A stretch of DNA of 64,000 bases from Klebsiella pneumoniae (GTDB taxonomy: Bacteria; Pseudomonadota; Gammaproteobacteria; Pseudomonadales; Azotimanducaceae). The notes below the pieces were generated by a model. It ran no database searches, was not told where the DNA came from, and was given only the letters and a program-made list of their open reading frames with translations. The stretch is from positions 1 to 64,000 of the forward strand of contig CAMAVY010000003.1 of the NCBI GenBank assembly GCA_945861675.1. The letters are read 5' to 3'. Position 1 is the stretch's first letter. Every line of letters starts with the position of its first letter. A program made the position numbers and the translations under genes. Below are positions 44,392 to 52,429 of the stretch, in pieces.

Positions 44392-45465
44392 TCAGTGCCG
44401 CACTACTTCCTGCGACCACGCATGCACGGTACGGGCACGCGCCCAGGCCACATCGCCCACGCGCCACGCCACCGGATCATTTGCCTGCAGCGGCACTTCT
44501 GTGTCGATGGCACCGCGGCCATCCTGACGCTCGAGCTCCAGACGCACGCGCGTGCCCATGCGCAGGATGCGCGTAACGGTCACGGGCACGTCGCCCGACC
44601 CAGCTTGTGCGCGCGACAGTTCGATGTCGTGCGGCCGCACATACACACCTGCGTGGTCTGCATCGGCGACGTGCTCGTCGCCGACGGGCACGTCGCCGAC
44701 CAATACGTCGCTGCGACCGCTGCGCGCGCGCCCATGGAACAGCGTGACATCGCCGAGGAACTGATACACGAAGGGCGTCGCCGGTTGTTCATACACCTCG
44801 GTAGCCGTGCCCACCTGCTCGATGCGGCCCTCGTTCATCACCACGATGCGATCGGCAACTTCCAGTGCCTCTTCCTGGTCGTGCGTCACAAACACGCTGG
44901 TCACGTGCAGCTGGTCGTGCAGCCGACGCAGCCATCGGCGCAGCTCTTTACGAACGCGCGCATCAAGAGCACCGAAGGGTTCGTCGAGCAGCAGCACACG
45001 TGGTTGCACTGCGAGTGCACGCGCAAGCGCAATGCGCTGCCGCTGTCCGCCCGATAGTTGCGACGGATAGCGATCGGCGAGCCAGCCCAGCTGGATCAGC
45101 TCCAGCAGTTCGTTCACGCGCCGTGCAATGGTCGCGTTGTCCGGTCGCGTGGCGCGTGGACGCACGCGCAGACCGAAGGCGATGTTCTCGAATACCGTCA
45201 TGTGCTTGAACAGCGCGTAGTGCTGGAACACGAAGCCCACCTGACGCTCGCGCACGTCGGTGCCACGCGTGTACTCACCGCTGAACAGCACTGTGCCGCT
45301 GTCGGGTTGCTCAAGTCCCGCGATGATGCGCAACAACGTAGTTTTGCCGCAGCCGGACGGTCCGAGCAGCGCCACCAGTTCGCCAGTCTCCACTTTCAGA
45401 TCGATGTTGTGCAGTGCGTTGAACGCACCGAAGCGCTTCGCGACACCTTTGACTTCGATACTCAT
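44392..45465 (-). CDS. cysA: sulfate/thiosulfate ABC transporter ATP-binding protein
   Basis: CysA powers sulfate import by hydrolysing ATP at the inner membrane. The 357-residue protein has Walker [11 protein letters not shown]-loop [12 protein letters not shown], signature [15 protein letters not shown], Walker [14 protein letters not shown] and switch [15 protein letters not shown], followed by a regulatory TOBE-like C-terminal domain. That domain holds an unusual segment rich in [16 protein letters not shown]-type repeats (44640-44720). ATG 45465 starts [13 protein letters not shown]. It is the last of five genes in the operon porin-sbp-cysT-cysW-cysA, 23 bases after cysW. Confidence 0.95.
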
Positions 45466-45488
45466 CGCGCAATTGCTCCCCAGTATTC

Positions 45489-46355
45489 CTAAGCGTTGGA
45501 TGACTTCAGCTGTCGCTGCAGTCGCCACTCGACCAGGCTCTTCAAGAGCAGCGTCACTACAGCGAGGAACGCCAGCAGCGACGCAGCCGCAAAGGCCGCC
45601 ACGAGGTTGTATTCGTTGTAAAGAATCTCGACGTGCAGCGGGATGGTGTTGGTCAGCCCGCGCACGTGGTCCGACACCACCGACACCGCGCCGAACTCGC
45701 CCATCGCCCGCGCGTTGCAGAGGATGACGCCGTACAGCAGTCCCCAGCGAATGTTCGGCAGCGTGACGTACCAGAATGTCTGCCAGCCATTGGCGCCTAG
45801 CGAGATGGCGGCCTCTTCTTCCTCTGTGCCCTGCTCCTGCATGAGTGGAATGAGTTCGCGAGCCACGAACGGCAACGTTACGAACATCGTCGCCAGCACA
45901 ATGCCGGGCACCGCGAAAATGATGCGGATGTCATGTTCGATCAGCCACTCGCCCCACCAGCCCTGCATGCCGAACAACATCACATAGGCAAGACCGGCCA
46001 CGACAGGCGAGACCGAGAACGGCAGATCGATGAGCGTGATCAGCAGGCTCTTGCCGCGGAACTCGAACTTGGCAATCGACCAGGCTGCAGCGATACCGAA
46101 CACCAGGTTCAGTGGTACCGAAATGAGCGCAGTCACCAGCGTGAGCTTGATCGCCGAGACGGCGATCGGATCGGACAGCACCGCGAGATAGGCCGACACC
46201 CCATCGCGAAACGCATAGCCGAACACCACCACCAGCGGCGCTGCGAGAAACACCAGCATGAACGCCACGGCCACGGCAATGAGCAGTACGCGCACTGGCG
46301 CGGACTCCTGGGTTGCAATGCGTGGTGTATAGGACGAGATCGTTGTGCTGCTCAT
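45489..46355 (-). CDS. cysW: sulfate ABC transporter permease CysW
   Basis: The 288-residue inner-membrane protein has six hydrophobic segments (for example [20 protein letters not shown] and [19 protein letters not shown]) and the permease motif [20 protein letters not shown], which contacts CysA. The stretch [14 protein letters not shown] is diagnostic of CysW. It pairs with CysT to form the channel. It is 15 bases downstream of cysT. Confidence 0.95.
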
Positions 46356-46370
46356 TGAAACTACCTCAGC

Positions 46371-47198
46371 TCAACGGGAATGACGGACGCGCGTCCACCA
46401 CTGCAGCACGTTGATGCTGAGCAGCAGCGCGAAGGACACCAGCAGCAACGACACCGCGAGCGCAGTGGCGCCCGCGTAGTCGTACTGCTCGAGCTTGGTG
46501 ACGATGAGCAGCGGCGTGATCTCCGACACCATCGGTATGTTCCCTGCAATGAAGATGACCGAGCCGTACTCACCCAGCGCGCGTGCGAATGCCAATGCGA
46601 ACCCCGTGAGCAGCGCAGGTGTGAGCGCCGGCAGGATGACGCGGATGAAAGTCTGCAAACGCGTTGCGCCCAGGCTTGCGGCCGCCTCCTCGAGCTCGGG
46701 TTCGAACTCCTGCAACACCGGTTGCACCGTGCGCACCACGAACGGCAATCCGATAAACGTCAGCGCAACCACGACACCCAGCGGCGTGTAGGCCACCTTG
46801 ATGCCGGCCTGCGCCAACAGCTGCCCGAAGGGGCCCGTCTCGGCGTACAGCGCCGTGAGGCCGATGCCAGCTACAGCGGTCGGCAGCGCAAATGGCAGGT
46901 CGACCAATGCATCGAGCACGCGTCGGCCCGGAAACTCACAGCGCACGAGCACCCAGGCGATGAGCATGCCCATCACGGCGTTGATGCAGGCACCGATGAA
47001 CGCTGCACCGAAGCTGAGCCGATACGACGCCAGCACGCGGTCAGACGTGACTATGTCCCAGAACTCGCCGAATGTGAGCCCGGCCGCGCGTGCGAAGGTT
47101 GCCGAGAGCGGCAACAGCACGAGCAGGCCGAGGTAGAGCAAGGTAAAGCCGAGCGCGAGCGAGAAGCCCGGCAACACCGAATGACGACGCAGCAACAT
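46371..47198 (-). CDS. cysT: sulfate ABC transporter permease CysT (CysU)
   Basis: The 275-residue inner-membrane permease begins MLLRRHSVLPGFSLALGFT, the typical CysT start, and carries DLPFALPTAVAGIGLTALY, ELEEAAASLGATRLQTFIRV (the EAA loop that meets CysA) and ARALGEYGSVIFIAGN. With CysW it forms the sulfate channel. ATG 47198 is 13 bases after the stop of the binding protein gene. Confidence 0.95.
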   Translation of the reverse strand: MLLRRHSVLPGFSLALGFTLLYLGLLVLLPLSATFARAAGLTFGEFWDIVTSDRVLASYRLSFGAAFIGACINAVMGMLIAWVLVRCEFPGRRVLDALVDLPFALPTAVAGIGLTALYAETGPFGQLLAQAGIKVAYTPLGVVVALTFIGLPFVVRTVQPVLQEFEPELEEAAASLGATRLQTFIRVILPALTPALLTGFALAFARALGEYGSVIFIAGNIPMVSEITPLLIVTKLEQYDYAGATALAVSLLLVSFALLLSINVLQWWTRVRHSR

Positions 47199-47211: not shown

Positions 47212-48270
47212 TCAACGGTTCGTGTAGATCTGATCGAACACACCGCCATCGGCGAAGAAGCGCGCCTGCGCTGCCTTCCAGCCGCCGAAGTCGGCATCGA
47301 TGGTCACCAGCTTCAGCTTCGGAAACTGCGCGCTGTAACGCGCCAGCACGGCGGGAGCGGTCGGCCGGAAGTAGTTCTTCGCGATGATCTCCTGTGCCAC
47401 CGGCGAGTACAGGTACTGCAGATAGGCCTGCGCCAGCGCGCGCGTGCCGTGCCGATCCGCCACGCGATCGACAACCGCCACAGGCGGTTCTGCGCGGATG
47501 CTCACCGACGGCACCACGATCTGCAGCTTGCCCTTGGTCTGGCGCACCGCAAGCAGTGCTTCGTTCTCCCAGGCGATCAGCACGTCACCAATACCGCGTT
47601 CGACAAACGTAATCGTTGAGCCGCGCGCGCCGGAATCGAGGATTGGCGCGTTCTTGTAGACCTTGCCCACGAACTGCTGCGCCTGTGCATCGCCGCCCAG
47701 CGCAGCGCGTGCGTAGGCCCAGGCCGCAAGGAAGTTCCAGCGCGCACCGCCCGAGGTCTTCGGGTTCGGCGTGATGACCGAGACACCAGGACGCGCAAGG
47801 TCGTTCCAGTCGCGAATCTTCTTCGGGTTGCCGGCCCGCACCAGCAACACGATGGTCGAGGTGTAGGGCGTGCTGTTGTGCGGCAGCCGCTTCTGCCAGT
47901 CCTTCGGAATGAGCCGGCCACGTTCGTGGATGGCGTCGATGTCGCCCGACAGCGCCAGCGTAACGACGTCGGCTTCCAGGCCATCGATGACACTGCGTGC
48001 CTGTTTGCCCGAACCGCCATGCGACTGCTGCACGGTGACAGCGCCTTTGCCTTGCGCTTGCCAGTACTTCGAGAACGTCGCGTTGTACGCCTCGAACAAC
48101 TCGCGCGTTGGGTCGTAGGAAACATTGAGCAGCGTGTTGTTTGCCGCCTGTGCGCTGAGCCCCGCGACCAGCGAGACCAACAGCACGCCGACAGCGGCAA
48201 TGCGCGCAGACCACCCACTGGATGACGAAGGGGATGACGAAGGGGAGCGACGAGCGATCGACATGAGCAT
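47212..48270 (-). CDS. sbp: periplasmic sulfate-binding protein
   Basis: The 352-residue protein captures sulfate in the periplasm and delivers it to CysTW. It has a signal peptide ([20 protein letters not shown]) after a serine-rich leader with a 12-bp duplication, then [70 protein letters not shown] and NYFRPT. All are typical of Sbp/CysP. ATG 48270 is five bases after AAGGA; ATG 48264 is also possible. It follows the porin gene by 35 bases. Confidence 0.95.
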
Positions 48271-48305: not shown

Positions 48306-49715
48306 TCACCAGCTCACCTGCACACGGGTGAACAGGACCTTCTCGTCCGGGCGGTCGTTGTTGTTCCTGGCGCCACCGTCGAACGTGGTGTGCTCGTAGT
48401 CGAGCGACGCTTTGATGTTGCGGTTCAGATACCAGTTGATGCCGGCGGCCCAGGGCTGCGCGCTGTCGGCCGCGGTGGTGTTGTCCGCGAAGCCAAGCGT
48501 GAAGGCGTTGTCGTCCACGTTCAGCTTGCCGGCGCGCGCCACCAGTTCGATTGCGCCCCAGCCTTCGCTGCCCAGCGTGAAGGGATGTGTTGGATTGATG
48601 TTGCCGAACCTGGCTTCTTCGCCGGTCAACACGAAGATGCCCACGGCCTGCCAGGCATCGTTCGTGAGCTGTTCACGCGGCTTGGCGTTGGCCCCCGTGC
48701 TGACGCGAATGCTCGAGCGCACGTACTCGCCCAGCAGGCCGAACTGCTGCCAGTTCCAGGTCACCTGCGGCGAGATTCGATCCGTCTGGCCTTGCGCAAG
48801 CACGGTGTTCTTGAACGAGAAGAACGTGGCTTGCACAGGTGAGACGAAGCGCGGCAGGTCGCCGGTCGCTTTCTTGTCGCCGAACGAACCCGAGACCCCG
48901 AAGGACAGGTTCTGCAGCGGCGAGGTGCCGTTGATGAACGGCTGGAACATCACGCGCGCCGCCCATTCCTTGGGATCGGTGCCATCCACATCGCCGCTGC
49001 CGCCATCGGGCACGCCATTGAACCAACCTGCGGCGTAGCTCACCGTGCCGTCGAACAGATCGCCGAACGCCTGTACGCCGACATCTCGGTTGGGCACGAG
49101 GTTGGTCGGGAAACCGCGCTCAACCCACTTGAGCTCGGAACCCGATTGCAGGCGTTCAAGACCGACCGGCGGTTTGAACTTGCCGAAGCGCAGTTTGAAC
49201 TGCGGATCGAAGTTCGCGTCGATGTAGGCGTCCTGCACCGACTGCCTGCCCAGGCCGAAGTCGGCCATGAAGCGAAACGCGAACAGCTTGTCGATCGTGC
49301 CTTCGAAGATTGGCCGCACGCGGCGCATCTGGAACGTGTCGACTGCCTGGCCGTGATCGTCGAACAGAAAACGCGAGTCGGCCTGCATGTAGCCGCGGAT
49401 CTTCAGCTGATAGGCCTGATCGCGCGAGGTCAGCGAGAAGCCACTCGCGCCCGCAGCAACGACGGGCGTCGTGGCTTTGGCCGCGGCATCGTCTTCGGCT
49501 GCTGCTTCGTTGCGACGGCCCAGGATCGCCACCTGTTGCTCGAGCTCGGCGATGCGTTCCTCGAGCGTCTGCGCCGGCGCAGCAATGGGCGTTTCTTCGA
49601 GGGCAGGCTCAGCCTGTGCGGCGGGAAACGTGGGCAGGATGAACAGCAACGCGGCGCCCGCCAAGGCGACGGGCAGCCGTCTGTCGGCACGGCGTGTTGG
49701 AGTATTGGGCGACAT
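48306..49715 (-). CDS. OprO/OprP-type outer-membrane porin
   Basis: The 469-residue protein has a signal peptide, a short coiled coil ([19 protein letters not shown]) that may trimerise it, and a 16-strand barrel-like region with the phosphate-selective porin pattern: [59 protein letters not shown] and the C-terminal [10 protein letters not shown] ending in an aromatic residue for outer-membrane assembly. OprP/OprO take up phosphate or pyrophosphate. Here the gene is first in a sulfate-import operon, so it may admit sulfate (inference). A strong sigma-54 promoter lies 46 bases upstream of its start. Confidence 0.9.
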
Positions 49716-49760
49716 TCGTAGATCAAGCCTGACGCGTGTTGGTACGCAGGCAGGACTCAG

Positions 49761-49776
49761 AGCACTGCGCGTGCCA
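49761..49776 (-). promoter_or_regulatory. sigma-54 (-24/-12) promoter of the porin-sulfate operon
   Basis: On the minus strand the sequence is TGGCACGCGCAGTGCT. It matches the sigma-54 consensus TGGCAC-N5-TTGCW at every position except one T, with correct spacing between the GG and GC elements. Transcription would begin near 49750, giving a leader of about 35 bases before the porin ATG at 49715. A sigma-54 activator gene is divergently encoded next to it. The upstream palindrome-like GCTGG...CCAGC near 49810-49830 may be its binding site. Confidence 0.75.
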
Positions 49777-49917
49777 GACGGCCAGATGCCACGAAATATG
49801 AAGGTTTGGGGTGGCTGGCCGGCACGTACCAGCAAATAGCACCGTTATATGTACTGGCTTGCTGGCGCGACACCTGTCCCCGTGATATTTCACGCCCTCC
49901 AGACAGCGAGCGCGCCC

Positions 49918-51513
49918 ATGGCCACACGTAACGAACCCAACGCGCTCGCCCTCACGCTATGGCGCGAGGCCTGCAGGAACGTCGAGATCGGCGAGTTCAT
50001 TGCCAACATCGGCGCAACGCTGTGCAGCACCTTTGGATTGACGAGCGTTGTGCTGCGCGAGTTCGACCTGGCTGCTGGCGAGATCGTGACGCTGGCAAGC
50101 ACCCAACCAATCGCTGAAGAACGCCGCGCTGCAAGTGCAGCGGAACTGCGCCGCCTGCACCGTTGGGCCGAGGCCGGCGAGCTGTCGACCAGCCGGCAGG
50201 TGCGCGCACGCGAACCCGCGCTATTGCGGCTGTCCGGCGCAACGCATCCCGACGCCTGCCTATTCGGCGCGCTGGCTGGGGAACACGGTGCCCGCGGATT
50301 GTTGCTGCTGGAGCTGCCACCGCGCACCTCAACGGATGCTGCGCGGCGCGCCCAACTGCACGCACTGCTCGATGCGTTCTCGGCGGCACTGGACAACCAT
50401 CACCGCGTGCATGAGCTGGAAGCCCGGCGGGTGGCGGCGGAGGCGTCGCGCCAGCAGCTGGCATTGCGACTGGGGCGCGACCCGGACCACGAGCCGGTCA
50501 TCGGAATCGACGGCGGCATGCGTGACGTGATGGAGCGTGTGCGCCTCGTCCGTACGTCGGATGTACCGGTGTTGATCCTTGGCGAGACGGGCGCCGGCAA
50601 GGAGTTGGTGGCGCGCGAGATTCACAGCGGCTCGAAGCGCGCGAAGGCGCCCTTCCTGCGCGTGAACTGCGGCGCCATTCCGGTCGAACTCATCGACTCG
50701 GAATTGTTCGGTCACGAGAAGGGCGCGTTCACCGGCGCCAGCGCGCTGCGCAAAGGTTGGTTTGAACGCGCGGACAAAGGCACGCTGTTTCTGGATGAGA
50801 TCGGTGAGTTGCCGTTGGCAGCACAGGTGCGGCTGCTGCGTGTGCTGCAGGACGGCAACATTCAACGGGTGGGCGGTGAACAGTCTGTGCACGTGGACGT
50901 GCGCATCGTTGCGGCCACGCATCGCGATCTTCCGACGATGGTGCAGGACGGGCGCTTCCGCGCCGACCTGTGGTACCGCATCGCGACCTTTCCTGTTGTG
51001 TTGCCACCGTTGCGCGAACGTCGCGAGGACATTCCCGAACTTGCGCGGCACTTCGCAGAACGCGCGGCGGCGCGGTTCGGCTTGCGTGCGCAGCAACCGA
51101 GCGAGGAAGCCCTGGTGCTGCTCGCACGCTATGCCTGGCCGGGCAATGTGCGCGAGCTGCAGGCGGTCATCGATCGCGCCACGATTCTTGGCAATGGCGA
51201 ACGGCTTGAGATTGCGACTGCGCTTGGCATGCCGAGTATTCAGAGCGCGGCGGTGGACGGCCCGTCGCACACGGGATTGGTGCCGCAACTGTCTGAGCGG
51301 ATGCTGTCAGATGAACAGCTCGACGGCGCGCCGATCGCGACGCTCGATCAGGCCATGCGTACACACATCGAACGCGCGTTGCGCAGCTGCAACGGCCGCA
51401 TCGAAGGTCGCAACGGCGCGGCCACGCTGCTTGACATCAACCCGCATACGTTGCGCGCCCGTATGCGCAAGCTTGGTGTGGCCCGCAGCGCGGGTGCGCG
51501 CGGACCGGCTTAG
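49918..51513 (+). CDS. sigma-54-dependent transcriptional activator (GAF-AAA-Fis)
   Basis: The 531-residue protein has an N-terminal GAF-like sensor (about 1-190), an AAA+ domain (about 200-430) and a Fis-type DNA-binding helix-turn-helix at the end ([20 protein letters not shown]). The AAA+ domain has Walker A GETGAGKE, the sigma-54 contact loop GAFTGAS, Walker [14 protein letters not shown] and the arginine-finger region [10 protein letters not shown]. Domain order resembles NorR/FhlA-type activators. It is divergent from the porin/sulfate operon, whose promoter is sigma-54 dependent, so this is the probable regulator. The ligand is unknown. Its last 13 codons fall in a 75-bp repeat. Confidence 0.93.
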
Positions 51514-51549
51514 TCCGATGCGGATGCGAGCCAGCCGCGCACGATCAGC
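51475..51549. repeat. 75-bp direct repeat, left copy
   Basis: This copy contains the end of the sigma-54 activator gene ([12 protein letters not shown] and its TAG) and, on the other strand, the last codons of a yqeY-like gene ([12 protein letters not shown] and stop). It matches 52355-52429 at 74 of 75 positions (C/T difference at 51540). Similarity extends about eight bases further left with two changes that are both synonymous for Lys-Leu. The two copies bracket an inserted toxin-antitoxin module. Confidence 0.9.
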
Positions 51550-52278: not shown

Positions 52279-52354
52279 GCGGCTCAAGCGCAGAGGGGCA
52301 GACGGCCGCCACATCTGCCAGAAACGCATCGCAACCCACGACCCCGGCAAACTC

Positions 52355-52429
52355 GGTGTGGCCCGCAGCGCGGGTGCGCGCGGACCGGCTTAGTCCGATG
52401 CGGATGCGAGCCAGCCGCGTACGATCAGC
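52355..52429. repeat. 75-bp direct repeat, right copy
   Basis: This copy supplies the actual 3' end of the yqeY-like gene on the minus strand. It also carries a useless duplicate of the sigma-54 activator end on the plus strand. The distance between copies is 880 bases. The arrangement implies that the two genes originally converged and overlapped at their stops, and that a segment was inserted with duplication of the junction. Confidence 0.9.

Follow-up and report, generated by a model that had tools for sequence, protein, structure and literature searches.

Sulfate uptake is regulated, in textbook accounts, by CysB, a LysR-type protein that controls sbp-cysTWA in many Proteobacteria. For the response to nitrogen limitation, a sigma-54 regulator exists in NtrC, but sulfate limitation is taught as a matter of control by CysB.

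Among the sigma-54-dependent activators that have been described, NorR acts through three tandem inverted-repeat enhancers located upstream of a -24/-12 promoter (PMC1274295, PMC2941729). Its GAF domain keeps the AAA+ domain inactive as long as no signal is bound, and the three enhancer sites build the oligomer (PMC2941729, PMC1274295). In sulfur supply, a sigma-54-dependent activator is represented by SfnR/SfnR2 of Pseudomonas, and titles cited in PMC8234197 describe it as CysB-regulated and as controlling the use of dimethyl sulfone (sfnFG, sfnA), not the sulfate ABC operon. No description of the control of a sulfate ABC transporter by a dedicated sigma-54 activator was found in term searches of open papers, with subscription journals mostly outside that coverage. 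These papers treat SfnR, a survey of sigma-54 across phyla, and sigma-54 regulons reconstructed in Desulfovibrio, Clostridiales and Geobacter; additionally, one reported transcriptome table of sigma-54 targets in Paraburkholderia phymatum gives cysW and sbp at -1.7 (PMC5979394).

The locus described here lies in the window, i.e., the whole stretch of 64,000 nucleotides that was analyzed, and has the gene order porin-sbp-cysT-cysW-cysA on the minus strand. The first gene of the operon codes for an OprP/OprO-type porin (48306-49715; Pfam PF07396, E 3e-26). It is followed by sbp, coding for the sulfate-binding protein (47212-48264; NCBIfam PRK10752, 488 bits, cut-off 288), the sulfate permease genes cysT (46371-47198; TIGR02139, 407 bits, cut-off 246) and cysW (45489-46355; TIGR02140, 414 bits, cut-off 329), and cysA, coding for the sulfate ABC ATPase (44392-45528; TIGR00968, 395 bits, cut-off 343), whose true start is probably nearer 45465. 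A genome search found no other sulfate-type CysTW pair in the window's genome. It could be argued that the importer carries another oxyanion (e.g., molybdate, thiosulfate or chromate) and that the switch is not about sulfate, as substrates are known to overlap among Sbp-family importers and, in two relatives (L022 and L043), the sulfate ABC genes are replaced by a PstS-like ABC operon with the same kind of promoter. However, the four subunits of the Sbp-CysTWA importer all pass the sulfate-model cut-offs, the ModA and CysP models score lower, and family members elsewhere appear to control APS kinase and cysK, so we consider this explanation very unlikely.

Divergent from the operon, on the plus strand, is the gene of a sigma-54 activator (49918-51513). 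The earlier note had described it as a GAF-AAA-Fis protein, and each part of that description finds a counterpart. The AAA+ domain is recognized by PF00158 (E 9e-69) and has a GAFTGA loop, read in the translation, which is kept in relatives mainly as GSFTGA. The Fis-type C-terminal HTH expected of sigma-54 activators is present, with an HTH_8 score (21.1 bits) just below the cut-off of 22 in the window's protein and matches at E<=0.01 in 45 of 53 relatives. The GAF domain has no Pfam match in the window's activator itself; its support comes from the relatives (GAF_2 in 12/53 and GAF_3 in 9/53) and from an AlphaFold model of the full-length protein (mean pLDDT 88), whose N-terminal domain matches GAF domains of the PDB. 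The longest ORF begins at an ATG at 49849, but a strong predicted binding site (49842-49857) covers that ATG and orthologues align from the ATG at 49918, so the latter is taken as the start. At its other end, the gene is partly duplicated: an 83-bp direct repeat (51467-51549 and 52347-52429, 96% identical) copies its 3′ end and flanks about 800 bp containing a DUF433-like ORF (from 51707) and a DUF5615-like ORF that is interrupted by a TAG in frame, both labels having been assigned by reading. This segment looks like a toxin-antitoxin-type insertion with target duplication.

NorR is the nearest mechanistic parallel to this activator. Both have the GAF-AAA+-HTH architecture and are encoded divergently from the target operon, and NorR is the best NCBIfam model of the protein, although the score (357.6 bits) falls under the cut-off of 476 and the activator is not a NorR. 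The two also differ in their sites, as those of NorR read GT-(N7)-AC (PMC1274295) and the motif predicted here is CCGT-N8-ACGG, with outer CC/GG, and in their targets, which are NO reductases for NorR and, judging by the neighboring genes, sulfate genes for the activator. NifA, with an equal domain order, is the best full-length PDB match by profile (9qq6, residues 7-519); its assignment was rejected because the score (327.8 bits) is under the cut-off of 528.85 and the operon is without nif genes. There was no SfnR model among the families compared, and SfnR would differ in its described targets, those predicted here being sulfate genes. CysB, finally, belongs to another protein family and works with sigma-70 promoters.

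The predicted -24/-12 promoter element of the porin-sulfate operon is TGGCACGCGCAGTGCT (49761-49776, minus strand), assigned by consensus match, matrix score and positional conservation. It had previously been noted that the element deviates by one base from the consensus and lies 46 bases from the porin start; both values are correct, as TGGCACGCGCAGTGCT has one mismatch to TGGCACGNNNNTTGCW and the distance runs from its 3′ end to the A of the ATG at 49715. Its GG and GC are separated by the canonical 10 nt, it matches the pattern TGGCACG-N4-TTGCW, and the RpoN gene is present in the window's genome. Matches to the loose consensus (two mismatches or fewer) show no excess in the window, 18 being found versus 20.7 expected. 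This chance frequency, together with the textbook rule of CysB control, would favor the view that the operon has an ordinary CysB-controlled sigma-70 promoter and that the -24/-12 match is fortuitous. As loose counting leaves the site indistinguishable from chance matches, a weighted matrix, written from the published sigma-54 consensus, and the comparison of relatives were used instead. With this matrix, TGGCACGCGCAGTGCT scores 15.5, the top value on both strands of the 64 kb (the runner-up reaches 13.2), and when the 300-bp region before the activator is shuffled, p is about 0.005-0.015 in repeated runs.

A second element was found de novo by expectation-maximization in 39 intergenic regions, where the 16-bp palindrome CcgTnAtATaTnAcgG occurs at about 101 sites, mostly as two or three copies per region. 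Its log-likelihood gain is 455, versus 72 or less in four dinucleotide-shuffled sets; motif width and symmetry were set after repeats had been seen by eye, with the same settings for the shuffles, and the search used 25 restarts for the real regions and 10 for the shuffled sets. When the window is left out of the UAS matrix, the top three positions of the 64 kb all fall in one intergenic region, the one between the activator and the porin, and are predicted to be UAS copies: CCGTTATATGTACTGG (49842-49857) has the top score, CCACGAAATATGAAGG (49789-49804), near the -24 element, the second, and CCGTGATATTTCACGC (49880-49895) the third. A weaker, uncertain UAS-like copy, CCAGCAAATAGCACCG (49829-49844), overlaps the first of these; its score of 9.7 is exceeded by some scores elsewhere in the window. 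The predicted copies are spaced by 53 and 38 bp, unlike those of the relatives, which are mostly 20-23 bp apart, i.e., about two helical turns.

Throughout the window's genome, a degenerate version of the motif, searched with a tolerance of one mismatch, matches only this control region and one further place (C93), which was rejected as a UAS because it lies within an ORF. The activator thus looks dedicated to the sulfate operon in this genome. A strict pattern run over the genomes of eight relatives, for which it is too strict, returned no distant regulon sites. Three matches to it were discarded, being without a good -24/-12 element nearby and with adjacent genes that did not read as sulfur genes; one of the three had no gene called beside it.

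Conservation of the promoter element in orthologous loci had been proposed as a check of the original claim, and the result is favorable. The comparison covered 80 loci from GTDB species genomes in which the best segment of the activator is 47-63% identical, with no closer relative among them. They come, among other taxa, from Planctomycetota, Hydrogenedentota, deltaproteobacteria including Myxococcota, Gammaproteobacteria (Pseudomonadota), KSB1, Gemmatimonadota, Rokuibacteriota, Binatota and Acidobacteriota. Scoring was restricted to 69 loci outside the window in which the activator start could be placed, and five copies of the window itself were removed from the counts. Matches in Vibrio THAF190c and Gemmatirosa, which have other gene contexts, were not counted. 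A minus-strand -24/-12 element is present within the 300 bp before the activator in 43 of these 69 loci at p<=0.05 and in 25 at p<=0.01 (region shuffles); on the plus strand of the same loci, the numbers are 9 and 6. As to the distance from the activator start, 33 of these 43 elements fall between 109 and 154 bp, and the window's own is at 141. Additionally, in 16 loci, mostly of myxobacteria, the sulfate operon and the activator gene share one orientation. A -24/-12 element precedes sbp in 13 of them (p<=0.025), so the element tracks the operon rather than the activator gene. Several of these tandem-layout loci also have clear UAS copies (L054, L066, L071 and L080).

There is some variation in this arrangement. 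For instance, the -12 part reads TTGA or CTGA, not TTGC, at well-placed sites in L014, L045, L048, L050, L059, L068, L072, L074 and L093. Three planctomycete loci (L055, L057 and L058) have good -24/-12 elements on both strands upstream of the activator and an additional one upstream of a downstream sbp operon. In the named and cultured Pseudoalteromonas piscicida 2515, the activator is divergent from porin-sbp-cysT-cysW-cysA, the order of the window, and the intergenic region contains the more degenerate TGGTCAGTTCTATGCA, which is among those with a degenerate -12 (TTGA or similar), as well as tandem AT-rich palindromes seen by eye. In G083, the only genome of the same order that encodes the activator, sbp-cysTWA is again the divergent operon, and a weaker element, TGGCATAGAGCTTGAT (score 9.9), lies upstream. 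CysW operons that lack the activator served as controls. Six genomes of the same order have one, and five of these had a readable upstream region. Promoter scores there were no higher than 9.4 and UAS scores no higher than 6.1, versus 15.5 and 16.1 in the window, so these operons lack both elements.

The neighbors of the activator point in the same direction. Sulfate ABC genes are found within 6.5 kb of it in 51 of the 80 loci, and other sulfur neighbors are TauE/SafE (11 loci), an SLT-type symporter (2) and APS kinase (2); in L014, cysK is followed by the porin and then by sbp-cysTWA. Thus, the activator seems to form a cross-phylum family whose neighbors are mostly genes of sulfate or sulfur acquisition. 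In 12 of the 80 loci, some of them on short contigs, no recognizable sulfur gene adjoins the activator (L008, L009, L011, L013, L019, L020, L027, L033, L035, L049, L067 and L077), and in one of these, L013, a strong -24/-12 element and UAS copies precede the gene of a secreted protein of no known kind.

The earlier note had expected a logic different from CysB control, which fits the regulators found: no CysB was detected at E<=1e-30 in the window's genome (completeness 94.7%), from which it is likely absent, and a CysB-type match is present in 90 of the 98 genomes searched. This absence, the positional conservation across phyla, the UAS motif found de novo, the tandem loci and the negative controls all stand against a fortuitous -24/-12 match beside a CysB-dependent sigma-70 promoter, which we regard as very improbable. 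As far as sequence comparison can establish it, TGGCACGCGCAGTGCT is confirmed as a real sigma-54-type element upstream of the porin-sulfate operon. This does not mean that the activator always replaces CysB, as some genomes carry both. A full CysB-type match accompanies the activator in one of eight other genomes tested, weaker LysR relatives are found in four, and in G083 the activator coexists with a CysB-type protein.

No CysW match at E<=1e-70 was obtained in the other searched genomes of the window's own family, and only 8 of the 98 genomes have one, the window's included. For Rho, encoded on the window's contig, identity to family members reaches 90% and all the best matches are in the family; the contig thus belongs to the genome and misbinning is unlikely. 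Most simply, the entire module, including its regulator, would have been gained by horizontal transfer. The donor is not named because, in a quick tree, the window's activator is on a long, unresolved branch.

Considering these results, the locus very probably represents a sigma-54-dependent sulfate-uptake operon that would be driven by the divergent activator through tandem palindromes, a job done elsewhere by CysB. In this model, sigma-54 RNA polymerase would sit at the -24/-12 element and wait, while the activator would bind the tandem palindromic sites between the divergent genes, assemble its ATPase ring and open the promoter by means of the GAFTGA loop. As an outcome, the outer-membrane porin and the Sbp-CysTWA importer would be switched on. 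More speculatively, the UAS copy near the activator start could also provide autoregulation.

The signal would most likely be low sulfur, sensed by the GAF domain via a sulfur metabolite, although no candidate sulfur-ligand residues could be named in the activator. It is also possible, if rather doubtful, that the activator and the promoter are real and respond to something other than sulfur limitation, such as the redox state, sulfide or sulfite, NO or an organosulfur compound, sulfate import being one output. The sequence does not fix the signal, GAF ligands are diverse, some of the predicted targets are TauE/SafE permeases, which can export sulfite or import organosulfonates, and the nearest NCBIfam model, NorR, is an NO sensor (PMC2941729). 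By contrast, what the predicted targets have in common is sulfate entry and assimilation (the sulfate ABC transporter, the SLT-type symporter, APS kinase and cysK), and the N-terminal domain has neither conserved cysteines nor a conserved set of iron ligands.

Returning to sulfur limitation as the signal, we find it reasonably probable that the activators constitute an undescribed, cross-phylum family of sulfate-starvation regulators in bacteria without CysB control, with their own DNA code (CcgTnAtATaTnAcgG) and with interchangeable targets (the sulfate ABC transporter with or without the porin, TauE/SafE, the SLT-type symporter, APS kinase and cysteine synthase). A sigma-54 regulator family for sulfate acquisition is apparently real and undescribed, and what is new here would be the use of ordinary sigma-54 logic for sulfate supply, with a DNA code that crosses phyla. 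The idea can be tested in P. piscicida 2515, as it is cultured and has the gene order of the window. If it is true, the family would have a GAF sensor with a ligand that reports sulfur status, the sulfur regulon would become predictable in uncultured Planctomycetota, Myxococcota and Hydrogenedentota, and sulfur supply would gain an all-or-none promoter logic, as nitrogen has.
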